Shown here piece by piece: positions 564 through 27,757 of a stretch of DNA of 32,256 nt. The position numbers and the translations under genes were made by a program. A model generated the notes under the pieces. It worked only from the letters and a program-made list of their open reading frames with translations, was not told the origin of the DNA and made no database searches. Positions within the stretch are counted from its first letter, which is position 1. Each line of letters begins with the position of its first letter. The DNA is from Terramyces sp. JEL0728 (taxonomy: Eukaryota > Chytridiomycota > Chytridiomycetes > Rhizophydiales > Terramycetaceae): the NCBI GenBank assembly GCA_027603945.1, contig JADIIU010000140.1:1-32256 (forward strand), given 5' to 3'.

Positions 564-1220
564 TTATAAATTATTCCACCAGTGCATGATTCTATCTTTA
601 ACTCCGCTTAAAGATAAGGCAGGCCTGACATCCAAATAAAACGAAACTGGTTTTCCATCAATGGGTTTACCAGAGTAAAAATCAATTACATAAGTAACAT
701 TCTGGCCGCATCTGTCGACAGTCCAATCGTGTCTATCAAATGGAAGCATATATCCAAACAGTTGTTTCAATCTTGCTTTTGGTGTAATATCCTTTGCTCT
801 CCCTTCAAACTTTAACAATTTAGGATTCCCGCAAGTGTCTTTATACATTTGCTCCCTAAATCAAATCCAGCGTACCATTTCATAATTTCCCGCCAGCACC
901 TTTCGTTTACTGCATTATGGATAGGAATGATCGAGTCCATATCGTCTTCTCTAGGATTATGGTTCTTTCTCTTCATTGCATTGTAAAACATTTGTTCAGA
1001 AGGATAGACCCAATTCGTTCTAAATTAGTTATATTTACCCTTCGTATTTTCCTCCCATTGGAATTGAAGAAACTTCCCGCTCTGTTGAAAGCGGTTTCTG
1101 TTGGTCTGGTGCTGGTTTTTGGTTCGGTTGCTCCATATTATTGAGTGTGTTAAAAATAGAATCGGATGAATGCGGGACTGGGCATGCTGAATCCTGTCTA
1201 TTTGGGAGAGGACAAGACAT
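564..1220 (-). CDS. HCCS/CYC3: Holocytochrome c synthase (cytochrome c haem lyase)
   Basis: Three exons, complement(564..855, 876..1019, 1039..1220), separated by 20- and 19-nt GT-AG introns, give 205 residues. The enzyme sits in the mitochondrial intermembrane space and attaches haem to the CXXCH site of apocytochrome c. Visible family features are two N-terminal CP haem-regulatory motifs ([17 protein letters not shown]), [44 protein letters not shown] (whose His is the haem ligand in the human enzyme), and [13 protein letters not shown] followed by DVRPAL near the C-terminus. The ATG at 1220 puts the CP motif at the N-terminus; an in-frame ATG at 1292 would add 24 residues. The 3' ends of this gene and the ATPase converge, 69 bp apart. 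Presence implies a functional cytochrome c and hence a respiring mitochondrion. The family call is secure. Confidence 0.93.
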
Positions 1221-1367
1221 TTCAACTTTTTTTTCTGGAATCGAGATGTTGGCTAGACACAAGTTGGGATGGATCACACATTGATGATTCATACTGTTTA
1301 GCAAATCAAAGGATATGGGATTTTATAATTTTATTAAAAAAATCAATAAGACAAGGAAATAAGACTA

Positions 1368-3182
1368 TCAAGCGGTTAATACTGGCGCTTCAGTCTGGTA
1401 GATGTTGGCTGTGTTTTCATTATCAGTAGGAGCTGCAGGCTGAGTCCAAGAATCATCAGTGGTTGGAGCTCCTGGTGTTTGAACTGGCCCAGATGTAGCA
1501 GCAGGATTCCAGTTGGAGGCACCGGAGGTTGAAGGGGCTGTCCAATTGTAACTGCTTCCTGAAGTAGTGACTGAAGGAATAGCTTCTGACGTTGACTGGC
1601 CCTGTGAGGCAGTTTGGCTTGCAGCCGAGGTTGATTGCAAGGCAGTTGCTCCAGTGGCTGCTGCACTAGTTGTAGCTTGTCCTGCCCCAGTGACTTCTGG
1701 AGTACTGTATGCTGAAGTTTGTGTTACAGATGAATTGCTTTGGCTTGCAGTGCCTGTATTTCCAGGAGACGAAGCACTAATTGGGATTGGGTGAATCCTG
1801 CGAGTAGTGGTAGTTACAGCACTAGTGGATGATGAATTTGAAGAACCTGTGCTGGCTGAGGCAGTTGCAGAAATAGTACCGGTTGCTTCCTGAGTGCCAC
1901 TAGTTGTAGATGATGAATTTGAAGAGCCTGTGCTGGCTGAGGCAGTTGCAGAGACACTACCGGTTGCTTCTGGAGTAGAGTAACTGGAATTAGCTGTAGA
2001 TGATGATGTGCCTGTATTTTCAGGAGACAAAGCGCTAGTTGGGATTGGGTGAATCCTGCGAGTAGTGGTGGTTACAGCACTAGTAGAATTTGAGGCACTT
2101 GCGCTCGATGTCGTTGAAGAAACATTTGACGAATTTGAAGTTACTTCTGGAGTACTGTATGGCAAAGATTGGGTTACTGTTGAACTACTTTGACTTGCAG
2201 ATGCACTAGTTGTAGAATTTGCACAGGAGGACTGAGAGGCGGTTGGTGTTGCACTTGAAGAAGAGTTGTTACTTGCTTGTGTGGAAGTTGGAACCGAGGT
2301 GTTATACCAAGTATAAGCACTGTGTGTCGATGTTGGTGGTGCATACCACGTATATCCAGTTGGAGTTGCGTACCCTGAATTTCCAGATCCAGTTGTGGTA
2401 GCAGATTGACCAGATGCAGTAGTGGAGGTGCCATTCATGGATGAAGCGCTTGTATTTTCAGGAGACGAAGCGCTAGTTGGGATTGGGTGAATCCTGCGAG
2501 TAGTTGAACTTGCAGTAGCGGACGCAGCAGCACTGCTGGTAGGGATATGGTGTGGCCTGGTATGTCTAGTTTTGGTTGGTCCATTTTCCGACGCGTTTGT
2601 TGGCGAAGCTTGAGAATTAGCAAGAGTTGTAGTAGCCCCTGGTTGAGTTCCATTGTTTTCAATTGGCCATTGTGGGCTGTCGCACCAGACATCTGGGAAA
2701 GTACCGTTATAGTTGTCGTAGAAGGTTAGGACCCATTTTAGTTTTTGACAAAGTCTTGCCCAGTCATCATCGTCCCAATTCCAATCATCCCAATCATGGT
2801 GGTTTAGTTGGTAATCATTATCATCTTCTTCACAATCTTCATCGTCCATTCCGTTTGTATCAGTGCTGTTTCCAGTTGGATATGAGTGATAATGATGAAC
2901 AGTAGAGGTAACTGTTAAGCATGCACTGGCAGTTGAAGAGGCAGAAGCAGTGTTGCTAGATGCAGAAGATACACCGGTGGTTGGTGAACTGGAAAGAGAG
3001 CTAGTTTTCTTGTGGCACTTTCTTATGGAAGTAGTTGTAGAAGCGGCTGAGGAAGCAGTTGTAGAAGCAGCACTAGTACTGGCGTCGGTTGCCGCAGACA
3101 TGGCAGTAATGGTAGCATCTGGAGAGTAATCTAAAGCATTTGCATGCTTGAATTGGGTAAGCAGTACCAAAATATTGAACAT
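1368..3182 (-). CDS. Secreted mucin-like Ser/Thr/Ala-rich repeat protein
   Basis: A single 604-codon ORF with ATG at 3182. The N-terminus MFNILVLLTQFKHANA looks like a signal peptide with cleavage after ANA. Residues ~17-105 are Ser/Thr/Ala-rich. Residues ~110-175 form a very acidic Asp/Trp segment with a few Cys (DDEDCEEDD and WDDWNWDDDDW). The rest is a long Ser/Thr/Ala/Asn-rich stretch typical of O-glycosylated cell-wall or cyst-coat mucins. A motif RRIHPIPxSAxSPxNT occurs three times (near residues 225, 371 and 458), and a unit around ASTGSSNSSST is duplicated. There is no C-terminal hydrophobic GPI signal. A TATA-like TATAAAA lies 43 nt upstream (3225-3231). The role is unknown; surface or extracellular matrix is inferred from composition. 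No intron is needed. Confidence 0.75.
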   Translation of the reverse strand: MFNILVLLTQFKHANALDYSPDATITAMSAATDASTSAASTTASSAASTTTSIRKCHKKTSSLSSSPTTGVSSASSNTASASSTASACLTVTSTVHHYHSYPTGNSTDTNGMDDEDCEEDDNDYQLNHHDWDDWNWDDDDWARLCQKLKWVLTFYDNYNGTFPDVWCDSPQWPIENNGTQPGATTTLANSQASPTNASENGPTKTRHTRPHHIPTSSAAASATASSTTRRIHPIPTSASSPENTSASSMNGTSTTASGQSATTTGSGNSGYATPTGYTWYAPPTSTHSAYTWYNTSVPTSTQASNNSSSSATPTASQSSCANSTTSASASQSSSTVTQSLPYSTPEVTSNSSNVSSTTSSASASNSTSAVTTTTRRIHPIPTSALSPENTGTSSSTANSSYSTPEATGSVSATASASTGSSNSSSTTSGTQEATGTISATASASTGSSNSSSTSAVTTTTRRIHPIPISASSPGNTGTASQSNSSVTQTSAYSTPEVTGAGQATTSAAATGATALQSTSAASQTASQGQSTSEAIPSVTTSGSSYNWTAPSTSGASNWNPAATSGPVQTPGAPTTDDSWTQPAAPTDNENTANIYQTEAPVLTA

Positions 3183-3470
3183 TGGTTAAAGTTTATGTGG
3201 AAAAACACGGTCAGACAACAAACGTTTTATAGGCAAAATTTGCCTTAATTTTCCAACAGCAATCAAATAAACAAACAAATAGTAAGGCGGTTATGCATAA
3301 AATTTATGCAATTAGCTCCACATGTCCTTGAATGTTTGATTTGGTTGGAGAAATACAAATTACCACCAATGCTTATATCCGGTTTCGCACGGTTACTGCT
3401 GCATACTACTTGCAGCAGTCTACTAAATTTGGTAACTTTGAAATAATCGTCAAGGAAATAGAAATATGTA

Positions 3471-4668
3471 TTAGCAAGTGGTAAATTTGCCCATGTAGCT
3501 GCAAGCCCTTGGAATGGTATTGTTTTTTGGGACGCAGAAATAATTTTTGTACAACGCATCACATTCATAAATGGAACTATTGGCGGGAATGGCAAATGGC
3601 ACCTTCAGGTTATTTCCACCAATGTACCTAAGTCAAGTTCAACTTACAGGTTACTCAAGTTTGGGTACGGCTGAGATTGGTTAAAGGCAGTAAATTTGTT
3701 GTTATTTAATGCCAATACTATCAAACTACTAGGCAATGCGGGAATCGTGCCGTTCAGTTGGTTATAGTCGACGCGTCTACATGTTAAATTTATAGTACAG
3801 TGATTTCAGCCATTTGTATTTTGCGAATGAATACAACGGACCGGTTAATTTGTTGTGGCTCAATTTACTATGTCAGCAAGCAATTACATTGTATCCATTG
3901 ACCAGAAGACCCAGTTTGGAATGGTTCCGGATAGTTGATTATAGCTGAGCTCCATATAGCTAAGACTTGTCAAGTTTGAAAACATTGGAAGTTGCCCTGA
4001 CAATCTATTTCCGTTGAGAATTCAATGTTAATTAAAAATTACAAATATTTCAACAGCCGAAGGTTTAGATTTGGTATCGTTCCGCTCAACCCCCCACCCA
4101 GCAAAGAGTTGTATTCAACATTGATATACGTGATATTGGCAGGCCAAGCAGAAGGTAAAGCACCCGTAAAGTTGTTTTGCTCCAAATGGATATAATTCAA
4201 GTTGGTCAAGTAACTCAGCGCAGGAATTGATCCATTTAACTGGTTGAATTGCAAATCCAAAAAGTTCAGGTTGGTTAGTCCTGAAAAAGATGGAAACTTG
4301 CCCTTTAGACTATTATATCCCAAATGTCAACGTTAGTGATTTCTTACAGCTCTTTTAGGTATTGCAGTCCACCAGTGAATGTTCCAATGGACCCGTTTTT
4401 CCCGCAGAACTGCGCTGTCCAATCGCTAGTATAAGTACAGCTTTACACTGCGTAGACTCGCCCATTCAAACATGAAACTCCTTGAAAAGAGCAACAATTT
4501 GCAGTAAGTGAAGTTGGCGTGAATAATGAATTTCCTCCCATCTTTAGCCACGCGGTGTTCAAAATGGCACAATCTAGATTAGCAATACCTACCATTGGTT
4601 AATGTAGATGCTCGTTTCTCAATTGCAGTTCCGCCAGAGAAGGTAAGCAATAAAGGCAGTAATAACAT
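3471..4668 (-). CDS. Secreted leucine-rich-repeat protein (copy B), seven tiny introns, two ending in TG
   Basis: Exons, complement: 3471..3627, 3648..3776, 3799..3867, 3888..4022, 4043..4327, 4348..4425, 4447..4573, 4593..4668; introns are 19-22 nt. The joined CDS is 1056 nt (351 aa), exactly the length of copy A just upstream. The protein has a signal peptide (MLLLPLLLTFSGGTA), a Kex2-like EKR at residues 17-19, and an LRR-N-terminal cap with CCSFQGVSC. Plant-like 23-24-residue LRRs of the type LxxLxLxxNxLxGxIP follow, then a Cys-containing C-cap ending CSYMGKFTTC. Introns 4347-4328 and 4042-4023 end in TTG rather than AG; splicing there restores perfect repeats. The next AG is 18 nt downstream in both cases and would delete six LRR residues in frame. 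All introns but the first are phase 2 at the start of a repeat. Secreted LRR proteins typically bind ligands or surfaces; the specific role is unknown. Confidence 0.8.
4023..4042 (-). other. Putative 20-nt GT-TG intron (LRR copy B, intron 4)
   Basis: The sequence is gtaatttttaattaacattg. It occupies the same phase-2 position as copy A's canonical 19-nt intron (5267-5249, ending cgcag). Removal gives YLILNGNRLSG, aligned with copy A's YLILDGNRLSG. A canonical AG occurs only 18 nt downstream and would remove six residues of the repeat. Confidence 0.62.
4328..4347 (-). other. Putative 20-nt GT-TG intron (LRR copy B, intron 3)
   Basis: The sequence is gtaagaaatcactaacgttg, with a normal donor and ctaac branch-like motif but TTG where TAG is expected. 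Removing it joins gag-ct to a-cat-ttg and yields the repeat start LKELHLGYNSL. Copy A has no intron here. The nearest canonical acceptor is 18 nt further on. Confidence 0.6.
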
Positions 4669-4716: not shown

Positions 4717-5873
4717 TCAACAAGTTGAATAAGAGCCTTCGTAACTACATGCTCTTGGGATTGAACTGCCTTTTGGAACACAAAAGGAATTCTTGAACAA
4801 AGCATCGCAGTCGCTCATGGTATTTGTTGCTGGTAGAGTCAGTGGCCCTTTTAAATTGTTGTTTCCAATATACAAATTAGCTAATTTGGGAGAAAGATGA
4901 GTTTGGTCAAACCCAGTAAACTTGTTGTTATTCAAAGCCCTGTTTTAGGAAATGGCTTACAGCGCAATCAGGGAAGAAGGCAAGGTTGGAATAACCCCTG
5001 ATAATTGATTGTTATTTACTCGTAGTGATTTCAACCACTTGAACATCTGGAATGGCGGCAATTGGCCGGTTAATTTGTTATGGCTCAGCTTGCTAAATTA
5101 GGAGAGTTGCTACATTGTGTCCATTGACCAGAAATAGAAATCAGGAATTTTCCCAGTCAATTGGTTGTAGCTGAGGTCTAGGTAGCCGAGTTTGGGTGAA
5201 TTTACAAACATTGGAATATTTCCAGATAGCCTGTTTCCGTCCAAAATCCTGCGTTAAACAAAGCTACAAGTATTTTAAATATGGATAGCCCAGATCTGGA
5301 ATCGAACCTGTCAAACCTCCTCCCATCAAAAAGTTGTATTCCACATTAATGTATGTGATATTGACAGGCCAGGCAGATGGTAGCGAGCCAGTAAAATTGT
5401 TCAATTCTAAATGTAGATAGCTCAAGCTGGGTAAATATTTCAACGATGGTATAGGACCAGTCAACTTGTTGAACTGCAAATCCAGGTATTTCAAACTGGT
5501 CAAACCAGCCAGATTTGGGAACTTGCCTGACAGACGGTTGAAGGCCAAGTAGAGGGATTGGAGATTTTGCAAACCACCAGTAAAAACACCAATTGTCTTT
5601 CCGCTTTTGGAAAAGCGATCTGTCCAGTCCCTATTATCAGTATTATATACAATGAAGTTACTCTGGCATTAGAACATGTAACCCCGGCAAATTGGCAGCA
5701 ATTGCTTGAATGTAAAGTTGGGGTGTTGGAAGAATCTCCGCCCATATGCAACCAAGCAGTGTTGAGAATGGAGCAGTCTGGTTAATAAAGGAGATACCAT
5801 TGGCCAATGACGAAACTCTCTTTTCCAGCGATGAGCATTCATAAAGTAATGGCAGAAGCCAGACCGTTTTCAT
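4717..5873 (-). CDS. Secreted leucine-rich-repeat protein (copy A), five tiny introns
   Basis: Exons, complement: 4717..4939, 4961..5092, 5114..5248, 5268..5630, 5651..5777, 5798..5873, with canonical GT-AG introns of 19-21 nt. The product is 351 aa. It starts with a signal peptide (MKTVWLLPLLYECSS) and a dibasic EKR at residues 17-19, as in copy B. Next is a plant-type LRRNT cap (DCSILNTAWLHMGGD and CCQFAGVTC), about nine LRRs including LGYLDLSYNQLTGKIP, and a Cys C-cap ending CSYEGSYSTC. There is no TM segment, so secretion is inferred. Introns 2-5 are phase 2 and sit exactly at LRR boundaries. Compared with copy B it lacks three introns (B introns 3, 6 and 7) and has one (4960-4940) that B lacks. 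The pair is a tandem duplication 48 bp apart. The ATG at 5873 is preceded by a TATA-like cataaaaag. Confidence 0.88.
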
Positions 5874-7012: not shown

Positions 7013-8071
7013 ATGAAAAATATCACCGTTTTCGGAGCCGGCTTGATTGGCATGTATGTAGGGCTTCACTTGAAAGCAGAAAACAATGTCCAATTCCTTG
7101 GTAGAAGCAGTTCTTGGAAGCAACTATTGGAATCTGCCAAATCATTAACAACGTCCAAATTACAACAAAAAGACACGACTACGACCGAAAAAGTAACTGC
7201 TTTTATATCATACGAAGAGCTGGAAAAGGAGTTTCCTTCGGATATCGTTATTTTTACCTTAAAGAGACTTACAATCGATGCAGCTCTGGTATCGTTTATT
7301 GAAGCTCTAAAAGCAAGTAGAAACAAGCGCAAGATTGTCATCGTCACATTAATGAATGGTGTTGGCGCTGCAGAACAGATAAAGACAATACTCGAAAAAC
7401 ACGAAACTGGGTTTCAATTTGAATACGTTGAGGGAATGTGGTCAACGAATGTTGTGCAACAGGAAAATGGAGGAACAATTAACTGGCATCAAGGATCTTC
7501 AGGAGATTGCTATTTTGAAAACAGTAAAGGTGGAAAATATCTTTATGACTGCTTGTCTAAAACTCCAATCAATATGAAACTATCCGATGAAATGCGAAAT
7601 GTCCAGTATGGAAAGCTGCTGCTGAATCTGAACAATGCAGTCAACGCCTTGTCTGGTATTCCGCTTGCACAAGAACTAATGACTGCAGGGTACAGGCAAA
7701 TCTTTGCCAGTTGTATGCTGGAAGCACTTCAAGCTTACAATAAAGCAGGCATCAACCCGGTTGCGGCGACTCCATTGCCGCCATGGTTTCTCGCAAACAC
7801 ATTGGCAATCGCGCCAACAATGTTGCTGGAACTGGTTAGACCATTGGTTGTCAAAGTAGATGAATATGCAACTTCCTCATCGTTTGAAGACTTGAAAAAC
7901 AATAGAAAAACAGAAATCGATTATTTGCAGGGAGAAATCATTAGGATAGCAAAAGACCACGACGTTCCAGTGCCAACATGCCAATTAGTGTTTGATCAAA
8001 TAAGAAAGAGAGAACATGAAGGGTTCGGTATTATTCCATTAACCCCTGAACAGATCCTTAATAAACAATAG
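7013..8071 (+). CDS. 2-dehydropantoate 2-reductase (ketopantoate reductase)
   Basis: 352 codons, no introns. The NAD(P)-binding N-terminus is MKNITVFGAGLIGMYVG (GxGxxG). The family's conserved segments follow: VTLMNGVGAAE (catalytic-site Asn), YGKLLLNLNNAVNALSG (catalytic Lys) and KTEIDYLQGEIIRIA with PVPTC (substrate-binding Glu). The enzyme reduces ketopantoate to pantoate with NADPH in pantothenate/CoA synthesis, probably in the cytosol. The length is within the family range (300-380). It lies 114 bp downstream of the cyclin gene. Some members of this fold act on other 2-keto acids, so the substrate is inferred from the motifs. Confidence 0.9.
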   Translation: MKNITVFGAGLIGMYVGLHLKAENNVQFLGRSSSWKQLLESAKSLTTSKLQQKDTTTTEKVTAFISYEELEKEFPSDIVIFTLKRLTIDAALVSFIEALKASRNKRKIVIVTLMNGVGAAEQIKTILEKHETGFQFEYVEGMWSTNVVQQENGGTINWHQGSSGDCYFENSKGGKYLYDCLSKTPINMKLSDEMRNVQYGKLLLNLNNAVNALSGIPLAQELMTAGYRQIFASCMLEALQAYNKAGINPVAATPLPPWFLANTLAIAPTMLLELVRPLVVKVDEYATSSSFEDLKNNRKTEIDYLQGEIIRIAKDHDVPVPTCQLVFDQIRKREHEGFGIIPLTPEQILNKQ

Positions 8072-8098
8072 TTTTCACATCCATGATTTCTTTTAAAA

Positions 8099-8986
8099 AT
8101 GACATTCAACGGTTCGTTAAATTCAGTGGTACTAGGAGTAGAGATAGCAATGCTGCTTTTACTGTCAGCACATTTCACAAAATTGCTGATACACAAACAT
8201 GAAAAAACAATAATCATCTCGATGTTCATTATAATCCGAATCGTATTCCTCATTATATACCAAGAACGGGCGGTATTGGATCTTGCAGATATAATATGTA
8301 AATGGATATCAGCACTGTCGTTGTACGCTGCTATTTTTCTATGTGTGTATTTTCAAACAGATTTTCTGTACGGGATTGTGATCATTTCAAATTTTCCTCG
8401 ATCGTATATTGCAGTAATCAAAAAGATCTTGATTGCATTGGCAGCAATTACATTTATACCTCCGGTTATATGTATGTTTGTTTTTACAATCTACGGCGGT
8501 TCGCCAATTTACGATAGTTGGCAAGCGGTTGAAGGTTACGTTGCAATATCATACAACTCTGTACTGCTAACGTACGAGCTAGTACAGTGCTTTTTCCTAC
8601 TAAGAATCGTGAACGACTATGTGGAAACAAGATACATTCACCATCAATATGAAAGTGAAAGGAAAATGATCGAGTCAGCACTATCTACGCAAAACTTGAA
8701 AATGCTACGGATATCGCTAGTATTAATTATAGCAAATGACATCATTTGCTTTATCCTCTACGCTTTGGGGTACGGCTACAATAATGATTTTGGCAAGGCA
8801 GTTGAAACTATTGGATCAGTTGTGGTTTCACTGCATGTCTTTGCATTAGAATACATACTAAAGATCGTCAAGATTGTGCTTTTACCCAAAAATAGCATGT
8901 ACGGAGATCTACTAATGGAGCCATTGAAGCAGGATAAAGTGGCCGACAGTCTTGTCAATTGCGAAACTATTAACCCAGACCGTTAG
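8099..8986 (+). CDS. Orphan multi-pass (probably 7-TM) membrane protein
   Basis: 295 codons starting ATG 8099, only 27 bp after the reductase stop. About seven hydrophobic segments are visible, near residues 8-28, 38-54, 63-87, 105-130, 144-168, 203-225 and 237-262. A charged loop follows the fifth (DYVETRYIHHQYESERK), and the C-tail is short and polar. The topology resembles a small G-protein-coupled receptor without a large ectodomain, but I see no DRY or NPxxY signature and do not recognise a family. It has no sequence resemblance I can see to the receptor-like family at 20-25 kb. Confidence 0.6.
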   Translation: MTFNGSLNSVVLGVEIAMLLLLSAHFTKLLIHKHEKTIIISMFIIIRIVFLIIYQERAVLDLADIICKWISALSLYAAIFLCVYFQTDFLYGIVIISNFPRSYIAVIKKILIALAAITFIPPVICMFVFTIYGGSPIYDSWQAVEGYVAISYNSVLLTYELVQCFFLLRIVNDYVETRYIHHQYESERKMIESALSTQNLKMLRISLVLIIANDIICFILYALGYGYNNDFGKAVETIGSVVVSLHVFALEYILKIVKIVLLPKNSMYGDLLMEPLKQDKVADSLVNCETINPDR

Positions 8987-11752: not shown

Positions 11753-12970
11753 TTAATCCCAACCATCATCATCGTCATCTTCGTCTACATTAATATGAAA
11801 TACCTTGATCACTTTCACTAGCTTCAACAGCAGCCCTTCTCATCAAAATGGCAGCAACATCACCAGACTCGTTAATCTTTTTCTTTTCTTTCTGTGACAG
11901 TTCAGGCACAGCAGTCTTTTTTAATACAAACTATATTAGTTGGGGTTACTTGTTTGCTTCTGATATCGCCCAAGAACCCATTGATGTTTGAGGATGCTTC
12001 TGATGAGGGTGATGCTACACCTGGTGCTACACCTGGTGTTGCGGGAGTTGCTGGCACTGGACTTGCAACTGGTGGTGGTGGAGGTCCTCCGAGCATTGCA
12101 GGCGGTCTATAATTAGCATCAACTACGGTGGTGGAGGCGGTGGTGCAGCTTTTGGCGGAGGAGCAGCTTTAAATGCATTGCTTGCAGGGCTAGCCATATT
12201 TGGTGTGGATGGTGTATCGGCTTTAACCCTTTCTCTCCCAGTTTTGGCTGTGCTTGTAAACATTCCAGGCGATTTTGGAGCATTGTCGATAGGCTGATCC
12301 TCTCTATCCAGCGTAACCGATAGTCTTCTCATATCCGTACTATGCTTGACTCTTCTCTTTGCCTTCTTGCTATTTTGATCCTTTTGAAGTAAAATCTTCC
12401 ATTCTTCTACAAAGAATTCTGGATACGAAAACAGCTTCATACATGAAATACCGTCTGTTCTGAATTGATCAAGCACTTCTAATGGCGGAACTGGAGGACA
12501 AGACTCTAGATACATTGTCACAAACGCAGGTTTCGATTTTGGGACAAACACGTTGCTTGTAATAAAATGCTGTGATTTCCAGCAATTTCCTTGATTAAAC
12601 CAACCATACGTTCTCTATTTATTGGTTTTACTTCTTGCGATACCCCTTTTTGAAAGTCGTTGATCTTGTCGCCTATCAAATCCAGTTTGGTTTGTAAATG
12701 ATTGATTCTGTTTGATATTCTGATTGTGTGGTTTGCCAAATCTAATATTATGTAGTATTTACCTACAAATAGCTCGCTGGCGTGCGATGAAAAGTCTGAT
12801 AGTTGATCCAATAGTCTAGTTAGTTGCATGAAAGGCACCTTTTGTTATTTCGGCAGTACTTTTTTCAATGCAAACAAGTACGGCGGATCAACGCCTACTC
12901 CTGAATTATCCAGCTCCGGGATATTTAGTGATATCGGCCCTGCTGGAATTACTCTGTGAGGGAACGCCAT
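11753..12970 (-). CDS. SCAR/WAVE: SCAR/WAVE actin nucleation-promoting factor
   Basis: Seven exons, complement(11753..11784, 11804..11930, 11950..12106, 12127..12589, 12610..12741, 12763..12838, 12860..12970), with introns of 19-21 nt, give 365 aa. The N-terminal SCAR-homology domain includes QLTRLLDQLSDFSSHASELF and a long helix to ~residue 100. MYLESCPPVPPLEVLDQF with LFSYPEFFVEEWK corresponds to the ETY/C-PPPL-L--Y--DG--FYSNPSYFF--W block of animal WAVE. A basic segment (KKAKRRVK) and a polyproline region (residues ~240-280) follow. The C-terminus has a WH2 motif (FLGDIRSKQFVLKKT), a C-helix (DVAAILMRRAAVEASESD) and an acidic end with Trp (DEDDDDGWD). WAVE activates Arp2/3 downstream of Rac within the WAVE complex, driving branched actin and cell crawling. 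The intron at 12609-12590 is the least certain; a 17-nt alternative nearby gives the same downstream frame. Confidence 0.92.
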
Positions 12971-13073: not shown

Positions 13074-13627
13074 TTACTCTGCGTTAGAATCTCCGCTAAT
13101 ATCGTTTTGGCCGGAATCTGCAGGCGATTCATATTCGTCAGTTTTTTGATATTTCTGGAATCGCTCGCCAGTCTTGAATTGCTTGATCAGCTCAGCTTCA
13201 GCTTCACTATTAGATATCGCTTTAGTTTTAGCTTCAATCCTAATATGCTTTGCCCATTCAATACCACATCGCTACATTAATTAATTCTTACGTTGCATAG
13301 ACTTCTTGCGCCTGTAGGGCCTTTTCTCCATTGAGCTGTTTTATGGCATTTGCACCACAAGCACTCGCCAAGTGAAGCGGTATGCTGTGCTACTTTACGT
13401 TTCTTGCCCATCTTTGGTTTTTTGTCAATCTTCTTTGGTTTATTGATTGCTCTATTCATCCTGTTCATTCTCCTTATCAACGATGACGAATTGATTTTGT
13501 GCACCGCAGGTTGAAGAGTATATCCGTATTCAGGCGCAGGCTGCTCTACTATCTCGATCGAGAATGTGATGCCCATCATATTGCGGATCATGCCAGATGG
13601 ATGCGGGGGGTTTTTTCTTGGAGCCAT
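13074..13627 (-). CDS. Small GATA-type zinc-finger transcription factor (copy 1)
   Basis: Two exons, complement(13074..13271, 13292..13627), with a 20-nt intron; 177 aa. The start MAPRK and a short motif GITFS near residue 20 are shared by all three GATA copies in the window, as is VHKINSSSLIRRM. A basic stretch (KKPKMGKKRKV) probably serves in DNA binding or nuclear import. The single zinc finger is C-LW-C-x17-C-N-x2... completed across the intron: ECLWCKCHKTAQWRKGP, LCN and RCGIEWAKHIR. The intron splits the finger exactly between Asn and Arg of the second half (CN|RCG), phase 0. The C-terminal region is polar. GATA factors bind WGATAR sites, often in nitrogen or light regulation; targets here are unknown. 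The ORF without splicing ends prematurely at CNVRIN. Confidence 0.9.
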
Positions 13628-17251: not shown

Positions 17252-17784
17252 ATGGCTCCAAGGAAACAAAAGCCATTGGCACAAGATATAGTAAAGAACA
17301 CCAGAGGAATAACATTTTCATTCCAGCTGCAACAAGAACACACTCCGGCCTCATCTCCCTCAGTTACACCAGTCTCTTCCCCCAAAGAAGAAACTGAATA
17401 CAATCTAGCAGTCAATGTACATACAATCACATCAACATCATTATTGAATAGACTTCAAAATGAACCAGAATCAAAGCCTCGTAAACGAAAGATTACACAG
17501 TCGACATCACAACCTGGTGAGTGTCAATGGTGTTTTACAAAGAAAACAGCGCAATGGCGAAAGGGCCCGACGGGTGCTCGCGGGTTATGCAACGTAACTA
17601 ACACTAACGATAGAGATGTGGGATTGAATGGGCAAAGCAGATCAAGCAAGAAGCGAAACAGTTTGGCATAACTAATAGCGAAGCGGAACAGCGGTTAGTC
17701 GGGACTTATCGTACAAGCGAAAGATTTATTAGGTTCTCAAAAGAACATTTGGAGAATAGTGATAGTTTAGATCAAGTTTTTTAA
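17252..17784 (+). CDS. Small GATA-type zinc-finger transcription factor (copy 3)
   Basis: Two exons, 17252..17593 and 17614..17784, around the 20-nt intron gtaactaacactaacgatag; 170 aa. It starts MAPRK, with GITFSFQL, VHTITSTSLLNRL and basic KPRKRKI. The finger is ECQWCFTKKTAQWRKGP, GLCN|RCGIEWAKQIK, and the intron lies at the same position and phase as in copy 1. The C-terminal part (EAEQRLVGTYRTSERF) resembles the post-finger region of copies 1 and 2. The unspliced frame would run on 26 codons to 17671 and destroy the second Cys pair. Regulatory targets are unknown. Confidence 0.9.
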
Positions 17785-19386: not shown

Positions 19387-20219
19387 ATGTCTTCATTAGC
19401 TTGCTGCAAAGGATTCGTTGACAGGTTTATTTCACTAACAAAGCGGTACACCGGTAGGCCAAGAGCAGCTAATTAGCGGAATAAAGTGCTACGTTAGCGA
19501 ACCAAAGGAGCACAACAAAAAGGCGATTATCCTAGCTACAGATGTATTTGGATTCAAAGTGCCAAATATTAGACTAATGGCCGATGCGTACGCTAACCTG
19601 GGCTACTACTGCATCGTCCCAGACTTTTTCAATGATACACAACCACCTGCGGATATGATGGGAGACTTGAACAGTTTGGAGGATAAATCAACCACGTTTA
19701 GACAGAAATTGAGCACTTATGGACGAATGGTATATCATTTCCCAAAATTCCTTTTATTGAATTCGCAGCGACATTCAGTTGGAATGGTGAAGCAGCTTAT
19801 TCCACATTTAAGAGAAACCAACGCAAAAATTGGTGTGCATGGTACCTTTTACTTATTCAGGGTTCTGCTGGGGAGGGCTAGTTTCTGTTTACATTGCTCA
19901 TGAAGAAATCGTAGATGCGTGTGTAGCTTGCCATGCAGGTAAGCAATACTAACCAGGCATCTTGAGTGTGCCAAAAGATATACAAAAAATCAAGACTCCG
20001 GCATTCTTTATCAACGCTGAAATCGATAATCTCTTATCTGTTGAACAAGCAAAGCAAATTGAAACTGTAATGAAAGATAAACAGGGTGGAGCGAAACTCT
20101 ATCCTGGTGTCAAGCATGGGTTTGCGGTTAGAGGTGACGAGAATGACGAGCATGTTCGTGCACAGCGAGCTGAAGCTTATGACGACGCAGTTGCTTTCTT
20201 TAAACAATACTTGGAATAA
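19387..20219 (+). CDS. Dienelactone-hydrolase-family protein (copy 1)
   Basis: Four exons, 19387..19424, 19444..19841, 19861..19938 and 19957..20219, with introns of 19, 19 and 18 nt; 258 aa. The alpha/beta-hydrolase layout of fungal carboxymethylenebutenolidase-like proteins is clear: SGTPVGQEQLISGIKCYV, ATDVFG, VPDFFN, the nucleophile elbow GFCWGG (Cys ~148), FFINAEIDNL (acid Asp) and YPGVKHGFAVRG (catalytic His). The Cys-Asp-His triad is therefore complete. Family members hydrolyse dienelactones or other small esters; fungal AIM2-like members have no fixed substrate. The 18-nt intron gtaagcaatactaaccag is the shortest in the window. A paralogue lies at 26887-27757. Confidence 0.93.
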
Positions 20220-20406: not shown

Positions 20407-21973
20407 TCAAACATTGTCATTTACCGGTTTGGAACTTTGTTAATAAACATTACCTTTTTACAGCTTTTGACTTTGCAGAAGTACCTTTCGATATCGAGGA
20501 GGAAATATAGTGCGAAGAAGCAGAGATAATTCCGTAAATCTTGGAGGTCAAGTATGTGTGACAGGAAATACTGAAAAACATGTATGGAATCGCGTTTGTG
20601 TATCCAAAATCGTTTCCCAGAGCATACGTGTAGTTTTGCAGAATAAAAGGGATTCCATATAGCCCGAATGCTCCAAATTGAGCGATAATGTAGTATTTCA
20701 AATTCGGATCGACGCTGTTCACGTTTGCCTTTGCATCATTTTGAGCCATTTGAAACTTTAATAGTTTAACTGCAACCAGGATCGGAACTATAGTATTGTA
20801 CAGGAAAGTGAATAGTATCCACAGTACTGACAGTTCCTGCCAATTTCCAATTGCAATCAAGATTGGAATGGAATAGGTTGGCGGACCAACATTCAAAATG
20901 TACATTCCCCCATAAGAAGATCCGAAAAAGGCGATATGCAAGCACACAATAACTACAATATTGACCCATTTTGCAAGGTTCTTTTTTTTGTGGAAAAGAA
21001 CATTGGAAACCAAATAAGAGGTGAGAATGCAGTCAAGCAGAGTTCCAATTCCAAGAGTCAAAAAACATATGCTTGAGACAATTCCTCTCTGTACTGGAGT
21101 TACTACCCACGACCAATACATTATGCTTGAAACATAATACCCAAAGTAGAATATCTGTGCAACAAAGTTGATGTTTTTGGCCATTTGCGTCTTCTTTGAC
21201 TTTGATACCACTTTCCATGTTCTGTAAATCATAAATAACCCGACAATTAACGACCCAATGGCAAATATGAGAGCTATACAATCTCCAGCTGTGTGGAACG
21301 TTGGAACTACGAGCGCATGTGGAGCGTACTTGACCCAGCTGAAAAACATTGAAGCACCGGCTACTGTGTACTGTTGGGTGCTAATATTGCCCAGGAATAG
21401 TGAATTGTACGTGGAAAGTTGAGCATTGAGATTGATAGTTTCAGAGATGCCTGTGCAGCCTGGGTTTGTATAATAAGTAAAAGTTGAAGCACTACTTGAG
21501 CATTTGTAGTGGCCATCATAACAAATATCATCATTCGGTTTGAAATAAGCAGCTTTGTATCCTTCCAGTATCGATGAATTCGAAAAATCGTTTGATATCA
21601 GGTAGCAGTATTGCAGCCCATTAGCAACTTTTGGGACTGCATCCAATGCATATCCACCAGTATAGAATAAGGTGTAACCGCTGTAATATGGAGCTGAATC
21701 TGCAAAATCTAGCGAGCCCAAGCAAGTTTGCCCTGGCAGCGGAACAAACTCTGCCCCAGGACTACCAACTGTTGATTGAGTAGAATGAAATCTGTAATAC
21801 GGTGCCCATGTTTCATTCATAAATGGGAGCCATGGTAAAAAATCGAACGCGTATTGAGTATCAAAGACATAGATATTATCTGGTGGTCCCTGGCAATTGT
21901 TGCTAAAGTATTCCCCTTCTACAAGCAAGAGTGCGTTTGCAAGTCCTAGTAAGATTATGCTGTCCAAAAACAT
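20407..21973 (-). CDS. Receptor-like 7-TM protein with Cys-rich ectodomain (copy 1)
   Basis: The main exon (20454..21973) has ATG 21973. The signal peptide is MFLDSIILLGLANALLLVEG. The ectodomain runs to about residue 225 with six Cys shared by all copies (NNCQGPP, GQTC, QYCYL, DICYDGHYKC, PGCTG) and several N-glycosylation sequons (NETW, NSS, NIST). Seven hydrophobic helices follow, roughly at residues 232-252, 268-290, 300-325, 335-357, 372-397, 425-447 and 455-478, then a Ser/Lys-rich cytosolic tail. Splicing a 19-nt intron (20453-20435) adds nine residues and ends at TGA 20407-20409; without it translation stops at once (AAA AGG TAA) at 20450, giving 507 aa. Topology suggests a cell-surface receptor. 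I recognise no named family. Confidence 0.8.
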
Positions 21974-22155: not shown

Positions 22156-23696
22156 TTAAAATTCTCCTTCGGCGGTTTCCCTAAGTTAAATCTGAAATAC
22201 CTCTTTTCAGTTAGGGTGGTAGTAGAGGCACTGGTTTCCTCTTTTGCCTTTGAGGTTCGATAAGAGCTGACGAGGATTCCATAAATCTTTGCTCTGAAGA
22301 AAGTATGGCACGACATGGCAAAGAACAAGAATGGGAGTGTGTTTTCGCTGTCATTTCCCAAAGCAGTAGAGTATTTTTGGAAAGCCAATGCAGACAAGTA
22401 CATGGCAACTACTGCAAATTGCGCGGCAAAGTAATATTTCAAGTAGGGGTCATATTCAAAGACAAACTTTCCTCCTTTGTCGTTCTGAGCATTGAGTGCC
22501 CTCCTAGCAACAATGAGTGGGACAAGAGTGTTGTAAAAGAAGGTAAAGAACACCCAGATAACCGACATCTTTTGCAGATTGAGAAAAGTTCCAAGGAATG
22601 GGACGCTGACAGTCTTTGGGAACATGTTCAGTATATATGTTCCCAAATAGCTGGTTCCAAATGTACTGATATGTATCAAAATAATGGCAGAGATGCTGAT
22701 ATATTTCACTCTTTGGCTGTTTTCAAACATCAACTCGCTGACCAAACTGGACGTTACAATACAGTCAAAGACAGTTGCAAATCCAAGTGTAATGAAACAA
22801 ACCATGGCTAGCCTAGCTCTAGTTACTGACGAGCTTGAGAACGTCAAGTAAAAGATACTTCCCAAATAGTACCCAAAATAAAAAGATTGTGCCAAGCAGT
22901 TGACCATTTTAATAAAGTGCCGTTCTTTTGCTGTGCGCAAAGCTCTGTACGTCTTGTGAATCATGTATAGCCCAATGAATAAAGGTAAAACCGAGACGAC
23001 CAGGACAAACACATCTCCAAAGGAATTGGCAGAAAGAATGTTGAACGTTCGTGGAGTATATCTTGTCCAACTGAAAAACAACGAAGCACCTTTTACAGTC
23101 AAGTATTGCGTGCTGATATTCCCCAATAGAGCTGACTCAACACCAGTATAAGCTGGAGACATCGGAATGATTTCGCTGACACCAGTACACTCTTGATCGC
23201 TATAATAAATAAAATTTCCTTCTGGCAGGCATTTGTAGTGGTTATCATGGCAGATGTTGTTGTCTGGAATAAAGTACGCACTTTTATATCCGTTTAGTAT
23301 TGAATTATCCGCAAAGTTGTTGGACACGAGGTAGCAATACTGTTTACCATTCGCAGAATATGGAATAGCGTCAAGAGAGTATCCGCCAGTATACAATCGA
23401 ATATACCCGCTCCAGTAAGGCTGGGAGGTGAGAAAAGAGAGAGATCCAATGCAATTTTGACCAGGAATCGGGACGAATTCAGCTCCAGGACTTCCCAGAT
23501 TGATTTCTGAAGAATGGAATTTAAAGTATGGCGGCCAGGTTTCGCTACCTGGAGTGCTGGAATAGTCAAACGCGTGAGCAGTGTCAAAAACGTAAATGTT
23601 TGTTGGCGGTCCACTACAGCTTTTTGTAGTGTATTGGCCTTCGACGACCAATAACGATGCAACGGCAGTTACCAATACCGATCGAGCAAGTACCAT
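22156..23696 (-). CDS. Receptor-like 7-TM protein with Cys-rich ectodomain (copy 2)
   Basis: Exons, complement(22156..22180, 22201..23696), with a 20-nt intron gtatttcagatttaacttag; 506 aa. ATG 23696 gives the signal peptide MVLARSVLVTAVASLLVVEG. Ectodomain Cys positions match copy 1 (KSCSGPP, GQNC, QYCYL, NICHDNHYKC, QECTG). The seven TM helices follow the same spacing, including LYMIHKTYRAL after TM1 and LKYYFAAQFAV at TM6. The C-tail ends LTEKRETAEGEF. Without the intron the frame stays open through the intergenic region into copy 1, producing a misleading 604-codon ORF; the spliced length matches the family. It is the most divergent of the four copies. Confidence 0.85.
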
Positions 23697-23715: not shown

Positions 23716-23722
23716 ACGTCAT
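23716..23722 (-). promoter_or_regulatory. ATGACGT element before receptor-like copy 2
   Basis: The same 7-mer 19 nt upstream of ATG 23696; out of frame with the gene. Confidence 0.45.
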
Positions 23723-23841
23723 CTTTATGTTTTTATGCAACGCGAGGCATATCTAAACTGAAATAGAAAAAAATGGAAGAATCGATGATTGGTTCTATTT
23801 GCCATTAATTCGCTAGTGCTCATATTTGTAAGACTCTCTAT

Positions 23842-25380
23842 TCATTTGTAGGTTAGCTTATCCTGCCTTTTGATTGATTTGGATGGGGTAGTACTGCTAG
23901 CGCAAATCTTGTTGGAAACATAATGCGATGAAGCGGATATTATACCAAAGATTTTGGATGTTAGAAAGGTATGAAAAGCCATCCCACAAAAACAATATGG
24001 AATAGCATTTTGGTATCCGAAATCACTTCCTAGCGCATATGTGTAATTCTGCAAGACGAACGCAGTCGCATACATACCAAAAGCAACAAACTGACACGCA
24101 ATATAGTATTTCAGGTTCGGATCCACTTTGTTCATCTCTCGTTTGCTATCTTTATCCAGTGCCTGGATTCTAATCAATTTCAACCCAACCAGAATCGGCA
24201 CAGTGGTATTGTAGATGAATGTGAATAGGATCCAAAATACAGATAGCTTTTGCCATTCGCCCATGGAAACCAAAAGTGGAATCGGATATGTAGGTGGACC
24301 GATATTTAAAATGTACATCCCGCCGTAGCTAGATCCAAAGGTAGCAATGTGCAGCGATACGATAAAAATTACATTAATGCACTGCACTATTTTCTTTTTC
24401 CTTTCAAACAGCACATCTGACACCAGAAAAGAAGTCAATATACAGTCCAGCAAGGTGCCAACACCAAGGGTAACAAAAGATGCTGTTGAAAGAACAGCTT
24501 GTTGATATTGGGTGACGACCGTACACCAATACACGACACTACCAATGTAGTATCCAAGGAAGCATATCTGCGCGATAAAGTTGATTAACTTTGCAGTCAG
24601 TTTACCTTTAGCATTTCGAAGGTTTGTAAAAGTTTTGTACAGCATGATTAGGCCGATAACTAACGATGAAACTGCAAATATCAACGCACACCAGTCACCA
24701 ACAGTTGTCATCCTTGGAACTCCTAAAGCGTGCGGGACATTTTTCATCCAACTGAAAAACAGTGTAGCTGCTTGCACGGTATACAGCTGTGAGCTGATGT
24801 TGCCCAAGAATCGCGTTGGAGTTTGCAACAGCTGGGTCGATAGTACGATTGATTCAGCAGCCCCACTGCATCCCAAGTCACTGTAATATGTAAATACACC
24901 ACCAGTTGAGCAGCCGTAGTGGTCATCATAGCATGCGTTATCACTTGGTCTGAAATAAGCTGCTTTGTATCCGTTTAAATTCGATGAATTTGAAAAGTCA
25001 TTTGAAGTTAGAAAACAGTATTGCAGCCCATTGGCAACTTGTGGTATAGTATCTAATCCATATCCTCCAGTATAGAACAATGTATATCCGCTATAGTAAG
25101 GACTAGAGCGAGCATAATCAAGTGAAATAAAACACGTTTGGCCAGGAGCTACAACAAATACAGATCCGGGACTACCTACTGTAGCTTCAATAGAATGGAA
25201 TTTATAGTATGGAGGCCAAGTTTCATTTAGTGATGGAAACCATGGTAAAAAGCTGTACGCGTAGTTGGTTTCGAAAACATAGATATTGTCCGGTGGTCCG
25301 CTGCAGTAGTTGTCGAGATATTGGACTTCTACTAACAAGAGGGCATTTGTTACTACCATGAGATAGTTTAGTAGGACCAT
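23842..25380 (-). CDS. Receptor-like 7-TM protein with Cys-rich ectodomain (copy 3)
   Basis: 512 codons from ATG 25380, chosen because MVLLNYLMVVTNALLLVEVQ aligns with the starts of copies 1 and 2; an in-frame ATG at 25407, inside ATGACGT, would add nine residues. The same six ectodomain Cys (NYCSGPP, GQTC, QYCFL, NACYDDHYGC, LGCSG), sequons NETW and NSS, and seven TM helices are present. LKYYIACQFVAFGMY and HTFLTSKIFGIISASSHY are nearly as in copy 1. At the position where copies 1 and 2 have the C-terminal intron, this gene has aaaag|gcaggataag, read through as KRQDKLTYK. This may be a former intron now retained, or a non-canonical one. Function unknown; surface receptor inferred. Confidence 0.83.
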   Translation of the reverse strand: MVLLNYLMVVTNALLLVEVQYLDNYCSGPPDNIYVFETNYAYSFLPWFPSLNETWPPYYKFHSIEATVGSPGSVFVVAPGQTCFISLDYARSSPYYSGYTLFYTGGYGLDTIPQVANGLQYCFLTSNDFSNSSNLNGYKAAYFRPSDNACYDDHYGCSTGGVFTYYSDLGCSGAAESIVLSTQLLQTPTRFLGNISSQLYTVQAATLFFSWMKNVPHALGVPRMTTVGDWCALIFAVSSLVIGLIMLYKTFTNLRNAKGKLTAKLINFIAQICFLGYYIGSVVYWCTVVTQYQQAVLSTASFVTLGVGTLLDCILTSFLVSDVLFERKKKIVQCINVIFIVSLHIATFGSSYGGMYILNIGPPTYPIPLLVSMGEWQKLSVFWILFTFIYNTTVPILVGLKLIRIQALDKDSKREMNKVDPNLKYYIACQFVAFGMYATAFVLQNYTYALGSDFGYQNAIPYCFCGMAFHTFLTSKIFGIISASSHYVSNKICASSTTPSKSIKRQDKLTYK

Positions 25381-25400
25381 TGTAAAGTAAAATGATATGA

Positions 25401-25407
25401 ACGTCAT
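25401..25407 (-). promoter_or_regulatory. ATGACGT element before receptor-like copy 3
   Basis: The same 7-mer 20 nt upstream of ATG 25380; here it is in frame and could itself be the start codon. Confidence 0.45.
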
Positions 25408-25506
25408 CGTTCGTCAGTAAAGACGGAAGGGAATCTTTGCAATCCAAACACATGTCAGAGCCGATCCTTGATCCAGAAGGAATCATGAAATGAACTCTTT
25501 ATTAAA

Positions 25507-26174
25507 TTACTTTTTCGTTAGTTTGTAGACAAAATACTCGAACCCTTCGTCACTATTAAGCGGAAAGATTTCCAAATCAAAATAATCAACATTGAAAAAC
25601 ATTCGTCGGAAATGCGGCTGACAGAATGTAATTTGGTAAAAACTGCATTTTGGTTTAAGAATAAAGTGGACTTGATTCATGTAAGCTTGAATTTCATTAA
25701 TGATTTCCGGCTCTGGATCCCACTTGTCGTATTTTTTCGTCAGTAGTGCATCCATAGTGCCTGAATAAGGATAAAAGTACCTTTGTCGAGACAAATATCA
25801 ATCGATTCTTTTTCAAACAATAAATCCAATTTGAATATATCTCCAGTGAGCCATTCCATCCTTGAATCTCTATTTTTCATCATTTCAATAACAGTTGGTG
25901 AGTAATCAACATTGATTTGGTTGGTGTATCCATCATCGTACATTTCCGTCGATAAATTTGAATTCCCACATCCCAAATGCACAATTTTGTCTTGCTTTTT
26001 AACATGCTCATTAATGAATGGTTGAATAAAGGCATAAGATTTGAACCAATCAAAGGAGAGCGAATCGATTTTATAACGCGTTTCCCAGTATTCGTATGTT
26101 CCATACTCTACGTTTGTCGTCCTGCTGTACAGCTGCTTCATTTGTTGTTCAATTTCGTCCTGCCTGTCTTGCAT
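25507..26174 (-). CDS. eEF1A lysine methyltransferase 4-like (METTL13/ECE2-type) methyltransferase
   Basis: Exons, complement(25507..25760, 25781..26174), with a 20-nt intron inside DKG; 215 aa. SAM-dependent class I methyltransferase features: YEYWETRY near residue 30, DWFKSY, motif I IVHLGCGNSNLS (68-75 core), NVDYSPTVIEMM, MEWLTGDIFKLD and CLDKGTMDALLTKKYDKWDP. DKGTxDA is the signature of the EEF1AKMT4/METTL13 group, which methylates lysine in translation elongation factor 1A. The C-terminal strand region (FYQITFCQPHFRRMFF) fits the family fold. The start is only 16 bp from the divergent neighbour's ATG. Substrate is inferred from the family. Confidence 0.9.
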
Positions 26175-26190
26175 TTTTTCAAAAAGAAAA

Positions 26191-26596
26191 ATGAACGGTC
26201 CAATTTCGCTTCCAGATGAAGAGCAGCAACAGCCAGTAAACAAGTACGATACGACAATTAAAATACCTATACAATTTCTCGCACCACTCTGTTATGCGCT
26301 TGGAGGTATTTCCGGAACGCTGATTTTGATTTTTGAGACTTCCAACGATTACGCCAGATTCCATGCTTACCAATCACTGCTGCTATTTGTACCATTACTG
26401 GTAACTGATTTTAATGTAGATTGTAATTATTATTATCGGGTTGATCAGCACGATTCTTAGTGATATTTTATTGTTTGGTTACGTTTGCTCGAGTTTGTTT
26501 TTGGCTTATCAAGCGTATTTGAATTCGGATGCTCTTTTTAGATTTAAAGTGCCAGTGTTGGGTGATTATGCTTCAAAATGGACTGATTCGGAATAA
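26191..26596 (+). CDS. UPF0132/DUF4870-like (Tic20-like) small membrane protein
   Basis: Exons 26191..26400 and 26420..26596 around a 19-nt intron; 128 aa. The sequence IQFLAPLCYALGGISGTLIL then FETSNDYARFHAYQSLLLF matches the L-Y--GgitGii-ll-E--n-yvRFHA-QS pattern of this family, and the C-terminal FKVPVLGDYASKW matches its y-lPilGd-a-k- end. Three to four TM helices are visible. Function is unknown in fungi; related Tic20/HOTT proteins are membrane translocon-like. The intron is phase 0 after LL and the second exon restores the last helices (VIIIIGLISTILSDILLFGY). Divergent from the methyltransferase gene. Confidence 0.85.
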
Positions 26597-26886
26597 AATG
26601 TATATTTTACCTTGAATTGGCCAGTGTTGCGGATGTGCACGGAGGGCATTAGGCGATATTGATTTAGATACGCAACTATGAATGCATAATCGTAGTTTTG
26701 GCAAGTACTATGCCGCAGTTCTTTGCCAACAACGCACTAAAGATACTCCATGTTTCCTGCAGCTGATTACACTTATCCGTAGGACTATTTCGGGTTGAAT
26801 TATGCCAATTCCCAAGCTTCCTTGTAGGCCGTCAAACCCGACGGAATCCGAACGTGTATTAAAAACAAATTTTTGCAATCAAAAAC

Positions 26887-27757
26887 ATGACGTCTATTGC
26901 ATGCTGCACAGGTTTTATTGATTCGTATTTGTCGCTAATATAGTGGTACTCCTGCTGGAAATGAAGAAATAATCAATGGGATCAAGTGCTATGTCGCTAC
27001 TCCAACCAACCCAAACTCACATGCAGTTATCATCGCGACCGATATTTTCGGTTACACTCTTGCTAATGCTCGTTTAACTGCTGATTCGTTTGCCAAGGAA
27101 GGATACTTTTGCGTTGTCCCTGATTTATTTAATGGCACTGAACCTCCAGCCGATCTTATGGCCAATTTTGATCATTTAATGACCAAGTACGTTCTTTTAA
27201 TATCCAGGACTTGTACTTATTATCAGAAAACAGTTGCATTTCTAAGGCTGTCGCTGTACGGCCCTCCATTCATACTTTTCAATTCTGCTTCGTCGGGAAT
27301 TAAAATTATCAAACAAATACTGCCGGAAGTTAAAAAGAATCGTGGTAAAGTTGCAGTGCAAGGTAGCGGCTTGCTTATTTTACAGGTTATTGCTGGGGAG
27401 GGAAAATCGCAGCTTTGATGGCACACGAAGAAGGAGCAGTTGACGCTACAGTTGCTGCGCATGCAGGCAAACGATATTAATATAGGTGGACTAAATTATC
27501 CTGATGATGTCGAGAAAATAGTTGTTCCGACTTTCTTTGTGAACGCGGAAATGGACCATGCGATTACGGTTGAACAAAAGGATTTAATTGCAAAGACAAT
27601 GGAAAAGAAAGGCAGTAAGTTTGATTCAAAGCTATATCCTGGCGTGAAACACGGGTTTGCAGTGCGTGGAGACGAGAATGATGAAAATGTCTGCAAGCAA
27701 AGAGCGCAAGCTTTCATTGACTCTGTTTCTTTTTACAAAACCATTTTCAACCAATAA
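26887..27757 (+). CDS. Dienelactone-hydrolase-family protein (copy 2), with a GC-AG intron
   Basis: Exons 26887..26924, 26944..27186, 27208..27362, 27386..27466 and 27486..27757; introns 19, 21, 23 and 19 nt; 262 aa. Start MTSIACCTGFIDSGTPAG parallels copy 1. The nucleophile elbow GYCWGG has Cys at ~148, the same residue number as in copy 1. FFVNAEMDHA and YPGVKHGFAVRG complete the Cys-Asp-His triad. Introns 1, 3 and 4 coincide in position and phase with copy 1's three introns; intron 2 is extra. Intron 4, gcaaacgatattaatatag, begins GC where copy 1 has GT. The last 55 residues of the copies are very similar (KLYPGVKHGFAVRGDENDE). Probable cytosolic esterase; substrate unknown. Confidence 0.92.

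Follow-up and report, generated by a model that had tools for sequence, protein, structure and literature searches.

Putative spliceosomal introns of about 20 nucleotides form a uniform class in sampled DNA of the chytrid Terramyces sp. JEL0728

Introduction

How short can the spliceosomal introns of a fungal nucleus be? This question is raised by contig C140 of the Terramyces sp. JEL0728 assembly (15.0 Mb in 231 contigs), a stretch of 32,256 nucleotides (nt) that is called the window throughout. Terramyces is placed in Rhizophydiales (Chytridiomycota). A first-pass annotation of the window had proposed 36 introns in 13 genes, each measuring 18-23 nt (19-20 nt in 27 cases), and had taken these for a genome-wide class. 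The analysis reported here indicates that they are very probably ordinary U2-type spliceosomal introns near the minimum length, and the only class visible in the part of the genome that was sampled. Such lengths approach the smallest known from any organism and would not be expected of a fungus. The evidence base is genomic DNA sequence, splicing itself being predicted. If the reading is true, the question of how small an intron can be, and of what fixes that limit, extends to a fungus open to comparison with the yeast and human spliceosome structures.

Results and Discussion

Introns of the window

The genes of the window were rebuilt with a dynamic-programming gene finder and hand curation. 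The rebuilt models gave totals identical to those first proposed: 36 introns in 13 genes, all of 18-23 nt and 27 of 19-20 nt (20 nt, n=14; 19 nt, n=13; 21 nt, n=6; 18, 22 and 23 nt, n=1 each). The joined coding sequences (CDSs) had been said to be divisible by three; this is true for all 13, which also run from ATG to stop and contain no internal stop. Intron ends are GT-AG in 33 of 36 cases, GT-TG in two and GC-AG in one. The ctaa or ttaa element previously noticed near the AG corresponds to the branch site, and YTNAY is present within the 3' part of 33 of the 36 introns.

Introns were called with a position-weight motif model trained only outside the window, the same motif reversed serving as control. 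A first, low-cost version proved too permissive (454 calls versus 364 with the motif reversed) and stricter costs were therefore adopted. With the window held out of training, a cost of -9 gave 19 introns of 17-24 nt, versus one with the reversed motif; a cost of -7 gave 36 calls of any length, 34 of them of 17-24 nt, versus one. Among the final 36 introns, 33 coincide with motif-model calls, and the other three (5778-5797, 19425-19443 and 27187-27207) were added by hand from homology or paralogues. Three calls were dropped: 8028-8126 (99 nt), which would fuse two genes, 25332-25353 (22 nt), where paralogues use the equivalent sequence as coding, and 25497-25510 (14 nt).

Eight spliced proteins were tested against Pfam. 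HCCS, GATA1, DLH_B, the methyltransferase and LRR1 matched their families, and no match was found at 1e-3 for WAVE, g14 and g26. The family motifs announced earlier are recovered by Pfam for HCCS, GATA1, DLH_B and the methyltransferase. The WAVE protein lacks this support but resembles WASP-family proteins of other chytrids (46% identity over 97% with Kappamyces). In a protein search with spliced HCCS, the closest named matches after the strain's own HDV01_001568 were also from other chytrids.

Genes of the window with introns, each followed by its introns (coordinates, strand, description):

564-1292, minus: HCCS (cytochrome c heme lyase) gene, two introns; PF01265, 196 bits spliced; deposited as HDV01_001568
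856-875, minus: 20 nt; deposited model agrees; junction without gaps in alignment A3 (8 of 120 listed homologues)
1020-1038, minus: 19 nt; deposited model agrees; NWVYPSEQ restored
3471-4668, minus: LRR1 gene, seven introns; spliced CDS equal in length to LRR2; LRR Pfam families
3628-3647, minus: 20 nt, CDS nt 899; not in LRR2
3777-3798, minus: 22 nt, CDS nt 770; not in LRR2
3868-3887, minus: 20 nt, CDS nt 701; matches LRR2 5093-5113
4023-4042, minus: 20 nt, CDS nt 566, GT..TG; matches GT-AG intron LRR2 5249-5267
4328-4347, minus: 20 nt, CDS nt 281, GT..TG; LRR2 uninterrupted here
4426-4446, minus: 21 nt, CDS nt 203; matches LRR2 5631-5650
4574-4592, minus: 19 nt, CDS nt 76; matches LRR2 5778-5797
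4717-5873, minus: LRR2 gene, five introns; shares 219 of 351 residues with LRR1 once spliced
4940-4960, minus: 21 nt, CDS nt 833; not in LRR1
5093-5113, minus: 21 nt, CDS nt 701; common to LRR1
5249-5267, minus: 19 nt, CDS nt 566; common to LRR1
5631-5650, minus: 20 nt, CDS nt 203; common to LRR1
5778-5797, minus: 20 nt, CDS nt 76; hand-placed from LRR1, not called by the motif model
11753-12970, minus: WAVE/WASP-family gene, six introns; 4 of 17 homologues aligned (A1)
11785-11803, minus: 19 nt; motif model and open frame
11931-11949, minus: 19 nt; motif model and open frame
12107-12126, minus: 20 nt; motif model and open frame
12590-12609, minus: 20 nt; motif model and open frame
12742-12762, minus: 21 nt; motif model and open frame
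12839-12859, minus: 21 nt; motif model and open frame
13074-13627, minus: GATA1 gene, one intron; PF00320
13272-13291, minus: 20 nt; alignment column and phase as in GATA3; GATA2 uninterrupted
14128-14785, minus: g14 gene, family unassigned, three introns; open once spliced
14239-14258, minus: 20 nt; motif model and frame only
14504-14522, minus: 19 nt; motif model and frame only
14608-14626, minus: 19 nt; motif model and frame only
17252-17784, plus: GATA3 gene, one intron; open once spliced; GATA finger aligns with GATA1 and GATA2
17594-17613, plus: 20 nt; column and phase as in GATA1
19387-20219, plus: DLH_A, dienelactone hydrolase family gene, three introns; homologue alignment; open once spliced
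19425-19443, plus: 19 nt; hand-placed; position and phase as DLH_B 26925-26943
19842-19860, plus: 19 nt; position and phase as DLH_B 27363-27385
19939-19956, plus: 18 nt; position and phase as DLH_B 27467-27485
20407-21973, minus: 7TM_1 gene, one intron; motif model and open frame
20435-20453, minus: 19 nt; motif model and frame only
22156-23696, minus: 7TM_2 gene, one intron; motif model and open frame
22181-22200, minus: 20 nt; motif model and frame only
25507-26174, minus: methyltransferase gene, one intron; PF13847, 39 bits (tested model lacked a few C-terminal residues); full CDS open
25761-25780, minus: 20 nt; motif model and open frame
26191-26596, plus: g26, membrane-protein-like gene, one intron; open once spliced
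26401-26419, plus: 19 nt; motif model and frame only
26887-27757, plus: DLH_B, dienelactone hydrolase family gene, four introns; PF01738, 126 bits (21-nt intron retained in tested model); alignment A2
26925-26943, plus: 19 nt; position and phase as in DLH_A
27187-27207, plus: 21 nt, in frame, stop-free; hand-placed; its seven residues found in the deposited model only
27363-27385, plus: 23 nt; GYCWGG restored
27467-27485, plus: 19 nt, GC..AG; motif model; position shared with DLH_A

A single narrow length class in the sampled genome

The sample comprised the window and 24 stretches of 10 kb, in total 272 kb. The stretches (the opening 10 kb of each of contigs C1-C20, and four interior ones) were chosen, not drawn at random; with 240 kb they represent about 1.6% of the genome, and a few targeted loci were examined besides. 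Intron lengths were assayed without any splice-site motif, by codon usage only, with a flat length prior from 10 to 150 nt and all 256 pairs of end dinucleotides. In the first run, 71 of 131 GT..AG bridges were 18-23 nt long. After retraining the codon table on genes parsed outside the window, the figure was 74 of 133. The other 255 end pairs gave a mean of 8.6 bridges in this range in the second run (sd 4.6, maximum 28), and several of the top control pairs are one-base shifts of the GT..AG ends. No class of 24-150 nt was detected, GT..AG being under the control mean in all seven bins. Between 10 and 150 nt, the sample therefore appears to contain a single narrow class, below about 30 nt.

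The motif model called 325 segments of 17-24 nt over the 272 kb at a cost of -9, versus 31 with the reversed motif, and 374 versus 62 at a cost of -7; most of this sequence is training data. Outside the window, 321 of the 327 introns called at a cost of -8 were 19-23 nt long, a length that the model prefers, and their density was 1.7 per coding kb. Each of the 24 stretches contained at least four tiny introns, and the genome-wide distribution first proposed is borne out to this extent. If the sample is typical, the genome would hold about 20,000 of them by extrapolation. At the level of predicted splicing, the original observation is confirmed, and a uniform class of about 20 nt in a fungal nucleus is supported.

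Excision restores conserved proteins

Splice junctions were followed in alignments of conserved proteins with PDB sequences. These hold 16 junctions, five in V-ATPase A, three in AspAT, four in IleRS and four in Prp8 (partial gene), one of which fell outside the alignment and one in an unprinted part. All 14 visible junctions were continuous, 12 without any gap nearby and two with a one-residue gap about two residues off. Splicing restores the reading of the four proteins across these junctions, and the alignment of human with Terramyces Prp8 is almost gapless. U2AF65 read through its introns scored 251.7 bits with four stops, plus a 27.9-bit piece, and 334 bits when spliced (curated cut-off, 310.3). 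For SF1-HH the gain was modest: two matches of 66.2 and 42.9 bits became a single one of 113.5 bits.

Paralogues within the window behave in the same manner. LRR1 sheds 142 nt and LRR2 101 nt, and both reach 352 codons including the stop. Their four common introns (CDS nt 76, 203, 566 and 701) share position but not sequence, three others are found in LRR1 only (281, 770 and 899) and one in LRR2 only (833). Both GT..TG introns of LRR1 (281 and 566) are backed by LRR2. Likewise, DLH_A and DLH_B have three introns in common in position and phase, and GATA1 and GATA3 share one that is not in GATA2. Excision of the predicted introns would therefore restore exactly both the reading frame and the conserved protein.

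Anatomy of the introns

YTNAY was found in 62 of the 74 motif-free introns, and YTRAY in 54 of 74, versus 13 of 148 flanking 20-mers. In 55 of these 62 the branch A, taken from the last YTNAY, is nucleotide 14 or 15 of the intron, and in 54 of 62 it is separated from the intron end by 5-6 nt, leaving no space for a polypyrimidine tract in between. The 5' splice site consensus is AAG|GTAATT (+3 A, 0.81; +4 A, 0.47; +5 T, 0.46; +6 T, 0.59). An intron thus consists of the 5' splice site, a spacer of about 5 nt, the branch site YTAAY and a YAG end, with a GC content of 30% versus 40% overall. When the last two bases were left free, 330 of 444 calls ended in AG (next TG, 15, and AA, 13); when the first two were, 315 of 422 began with GT. 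These are the GT..AG ends, with minor GC-AG, of U2-type introns, and the branch site would be able to pair with U2 GUAGUA. Of the endings other than AG, TG is by a small margin the most frequent one in the sample; LRR1 4023-4042 and 4328-4347 have it.

In Paramecium, introns whose length is a multiple of three (3n) are enriched in in-frame stops. Among the introns called here, 7 of 72 of the 3n ones were stop-free versus 111 of 271 others, a comparison affected by detection bias. Inside the called CDSs, 24 residual motif hits were left, 12 of them of 21 nt, and the 3n difference fades at motif scores of 10 or more. A depletion of stop-free 3n introns is not claimed, being confounded by detection and fading with motif strength.

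Spliceosome components

The first-pass annotation had pointed to U2, U6 and the branch-site factors as the parts to inspect. The U2 snRNA is intact (140 bits) with GUAGUA preserved, and the genes for SF1 and U2AF65, like that for Prp8, are present and themselves contain tiny introns; U6 was not found by the family and pattern searches. The U5 snRNA was also found (85.9 bits). Two weak U6 matches were rejected because they lie inside a repeat. This repeat, of at least 3.1 kb, has copies 98.9% identical on C199 and C111 and contains a spurious U6-like stretch. The U6 pattern ACAGAGANGATNAGCA with one mismatch gave seven hits versus five in the control, about chance level, and a U6 3' pattern with two mismatches gave one poor match versus none.

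Deposited gene models

The GenBank models treat the tiny introns inconsistently. HDV01_001568 (HCCS, 177 residues) is 100% identical to residues 53-229 of the rebuilt protein, both tiny introns being spliced exactly. DLH_B, deposited as HDV01_001582, is mishandled. This model retains the 21-nt stop-free intron as seven extra residues, which are found neither in DLH_A nor in five other aligned homologues (of 46 further matches), and lacks the stretch GYCWGG...AHA, i.e. the exon carrying the GYCWGG motif. The introns that it implies would measure about 52 and 123 nt. Among the 17 WAVE homologues, none carries the name Terramyces.

Explanations of the length class

How could lengths become so uniform? 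Under intron definition, one end would be recognised by U1 and the other by SF1/U2, with a fixed spacing between 5' splice site and branch point, and 3' cleavage would take place at the first suitable NG. Such a splicing geometry might set a floor near 18-19 nt, towards which deletion would keep pushing intron lengths. A floor combined with deletion bias has been discussed in passages of an earlier study (PMC10245619). A more far-reaching version, which we consider doubtful, is that one whole branch within the Rhizophydiales has its introns fixed at about 20 nt, with a rigid spliceosome ruler replacing the polypyrimidine tract while U2AF65 is kept. Such a ruler would place the branch A at position 14-15 counted from the 5' splice site and have the 3' cut fall on whichever suitable NG comes first, 5-6 nt further on, so that GT..TG introns would be tolerated.

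Several observations weigh against ordinary U2-type introns as the only class. The length prior of the motif model favours short lengths, and its length statistics lean on that prior. The 24 stretches were selected. None of the 74 motif-free bridges of 18-23 nt falls inside the window, where the coding signal is weak. By total likelihood, GT..AG ranked 9th of the 256 pairs in the first run and outside the six best in the second, and AT-rich end pairs bridge at least as well; it is the length concentration, rather than likelihood, that singles out GT..AG. A scan extended to 600 nt gave scattered calls only, the range 151-600 nt being run once and without control pairs. At the 5' splice site, +5 prefers T over G. 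Finally, the RF00003 search for U1 gave no match, in control genomes either, and U6 was not found across the genome by family search and two patterns.

The strongest competitor is a mixed genome, in which an equally numerous class of 50-200-nt introns lies outside the sample or uses other signals. The small sampled fraction leaves room for it, long introns are poorly caught by the codon-based scan, which had no control above 150 nt, and the deposited DLH_B model implies two introns of greater length. We nevertheless judge it very unlikely: bridges of 24-150 nt stay below the control level, the longer DLH_B introns would cost conserved protein, and almost all introns called outside the window are tiny, though by a model favouring short lengths. 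Still less credible, and improbable in the extreme, is an artefact of gene modelling, with short GT..AG segments bridging frameshifts in pseudogenes or assembly errors. GT and AG are frequent in AT-rich DNA, the reversed motif still yields 31 and 62 segments at costs of -9 and -7, and the introns of g14, g26, 7TM_1 and 7TM_2 were placed by motif and frame alone. Against this stand the sharp length spike relative to the 255 control pairs, the fixed branch-site spacing, the continuity of all visible junctions in conserved proteins and the equal length reached by the LRR paralogues.

Real insertions of a non-spliceosomal kind, either eliminated from the DNA or bypassed in translation, would fit the failure to find U1 and U6. 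They would leave unexplained the GT-AG ends, the branch consensus fitting U2, the AAG|G exon context and the presence of Prp8, SF1 and U2AF65, and we give them hardly any credence. Programmed DNA elimination occurs in ciliates and some other organisms and is not known from fungi.

Comparison with known systems

Terramyces would be a new, fungal member of a small set of ultrashort-intron genomes. The consulted passages of the literature name the relic nucleus of an alga, heterotrich ciliates and rhizarian parasites with reduced genomes, with no fungus among them. Chlorarachniophyte nucleomorph introns measure 18-21 bp, heterotrich ones 15-16 bp and those of Mikrocytos 16-17 bp (PMC10245619, in part). 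The first-pass annotation knew of such a class only from nucleomorphs and a few ciliates; mikrocytids, which are Rhizaria, have to be added.

The Bigelowiella nucleomorph resembles Terramyces in length range and narrow distribution (PMC10245619, in part). Its introns of 21-27 bp are spliced less well, and size itself has been proposed as a signal (PMC5014332, in part). However, it is the relic nucleus of an endosymbiotic alga with slightly more than 800 introns, whereas Terramyces has a 15-Mb fungal nucleus. Stentor shares with Terramyces a genome-wide ultrashort class, the GUAAUU start (that of the commonest intron in Stentor) and conservation of U2 GUAGUA (PMC9505925, in part). Its introns are shorter (15-16 nt) with a U-rich branch region in place of YTAAY, and all five snRNAs were found there, as against U2 and U5 so far in Terramyces, where U4 was not searched. 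Mikrocytos mackini (16-17 bp) also has extremely short and uniform introns (PMC10245619, in part), but it has 224 introns and a reduced spliceosome, in contrast to the extrapolated 20,000 or so and the Prp8, SF1 and U2AF65 of Terramyces. Paramecium (about 25 bp), like Terramyces, has ultrashort introns only (PMC5014332, in part).

Ordinary fungal introns have GT-AG ends, a YTAAY branch site and U2-type machinery in common with those of Terramyces. They differ in size: in the consulted part of a fungal survey, Cryptococcus, with a mean of 63 bp, is cited as relatively short (PMC8476143), versus about 20 nt here. Our searches of an open-access collection showed no report of a class of about 20 nt in a fungus, and the available passages of papers on Batrachochytrium and Rhizophydium do not give intron lengths. 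Surveys may overlook such genomes. A pan-eukaryotic survey of minor introns left out introns below 30 bp, according to the portion consulted (PMC10639083), and the deposited DLH_B model illustrates how an exon can be lost.

Other features of the window

Two similar genes lie head to head at 29913-30677 (minus) and 30685-31317 (plus), and close to their adjacent starts is an inverted repeat of 36 nt whose arms are 94% complementary (30355-30869). The gene leaving the right end of the window (31692-32256) closely resembles 7TM_1 (20407-21973), a family with four or more members within 12 kb. An open frame of 605 codons at 1368-3182 is rich in Ser, Thr and Ala and internally repetitive.

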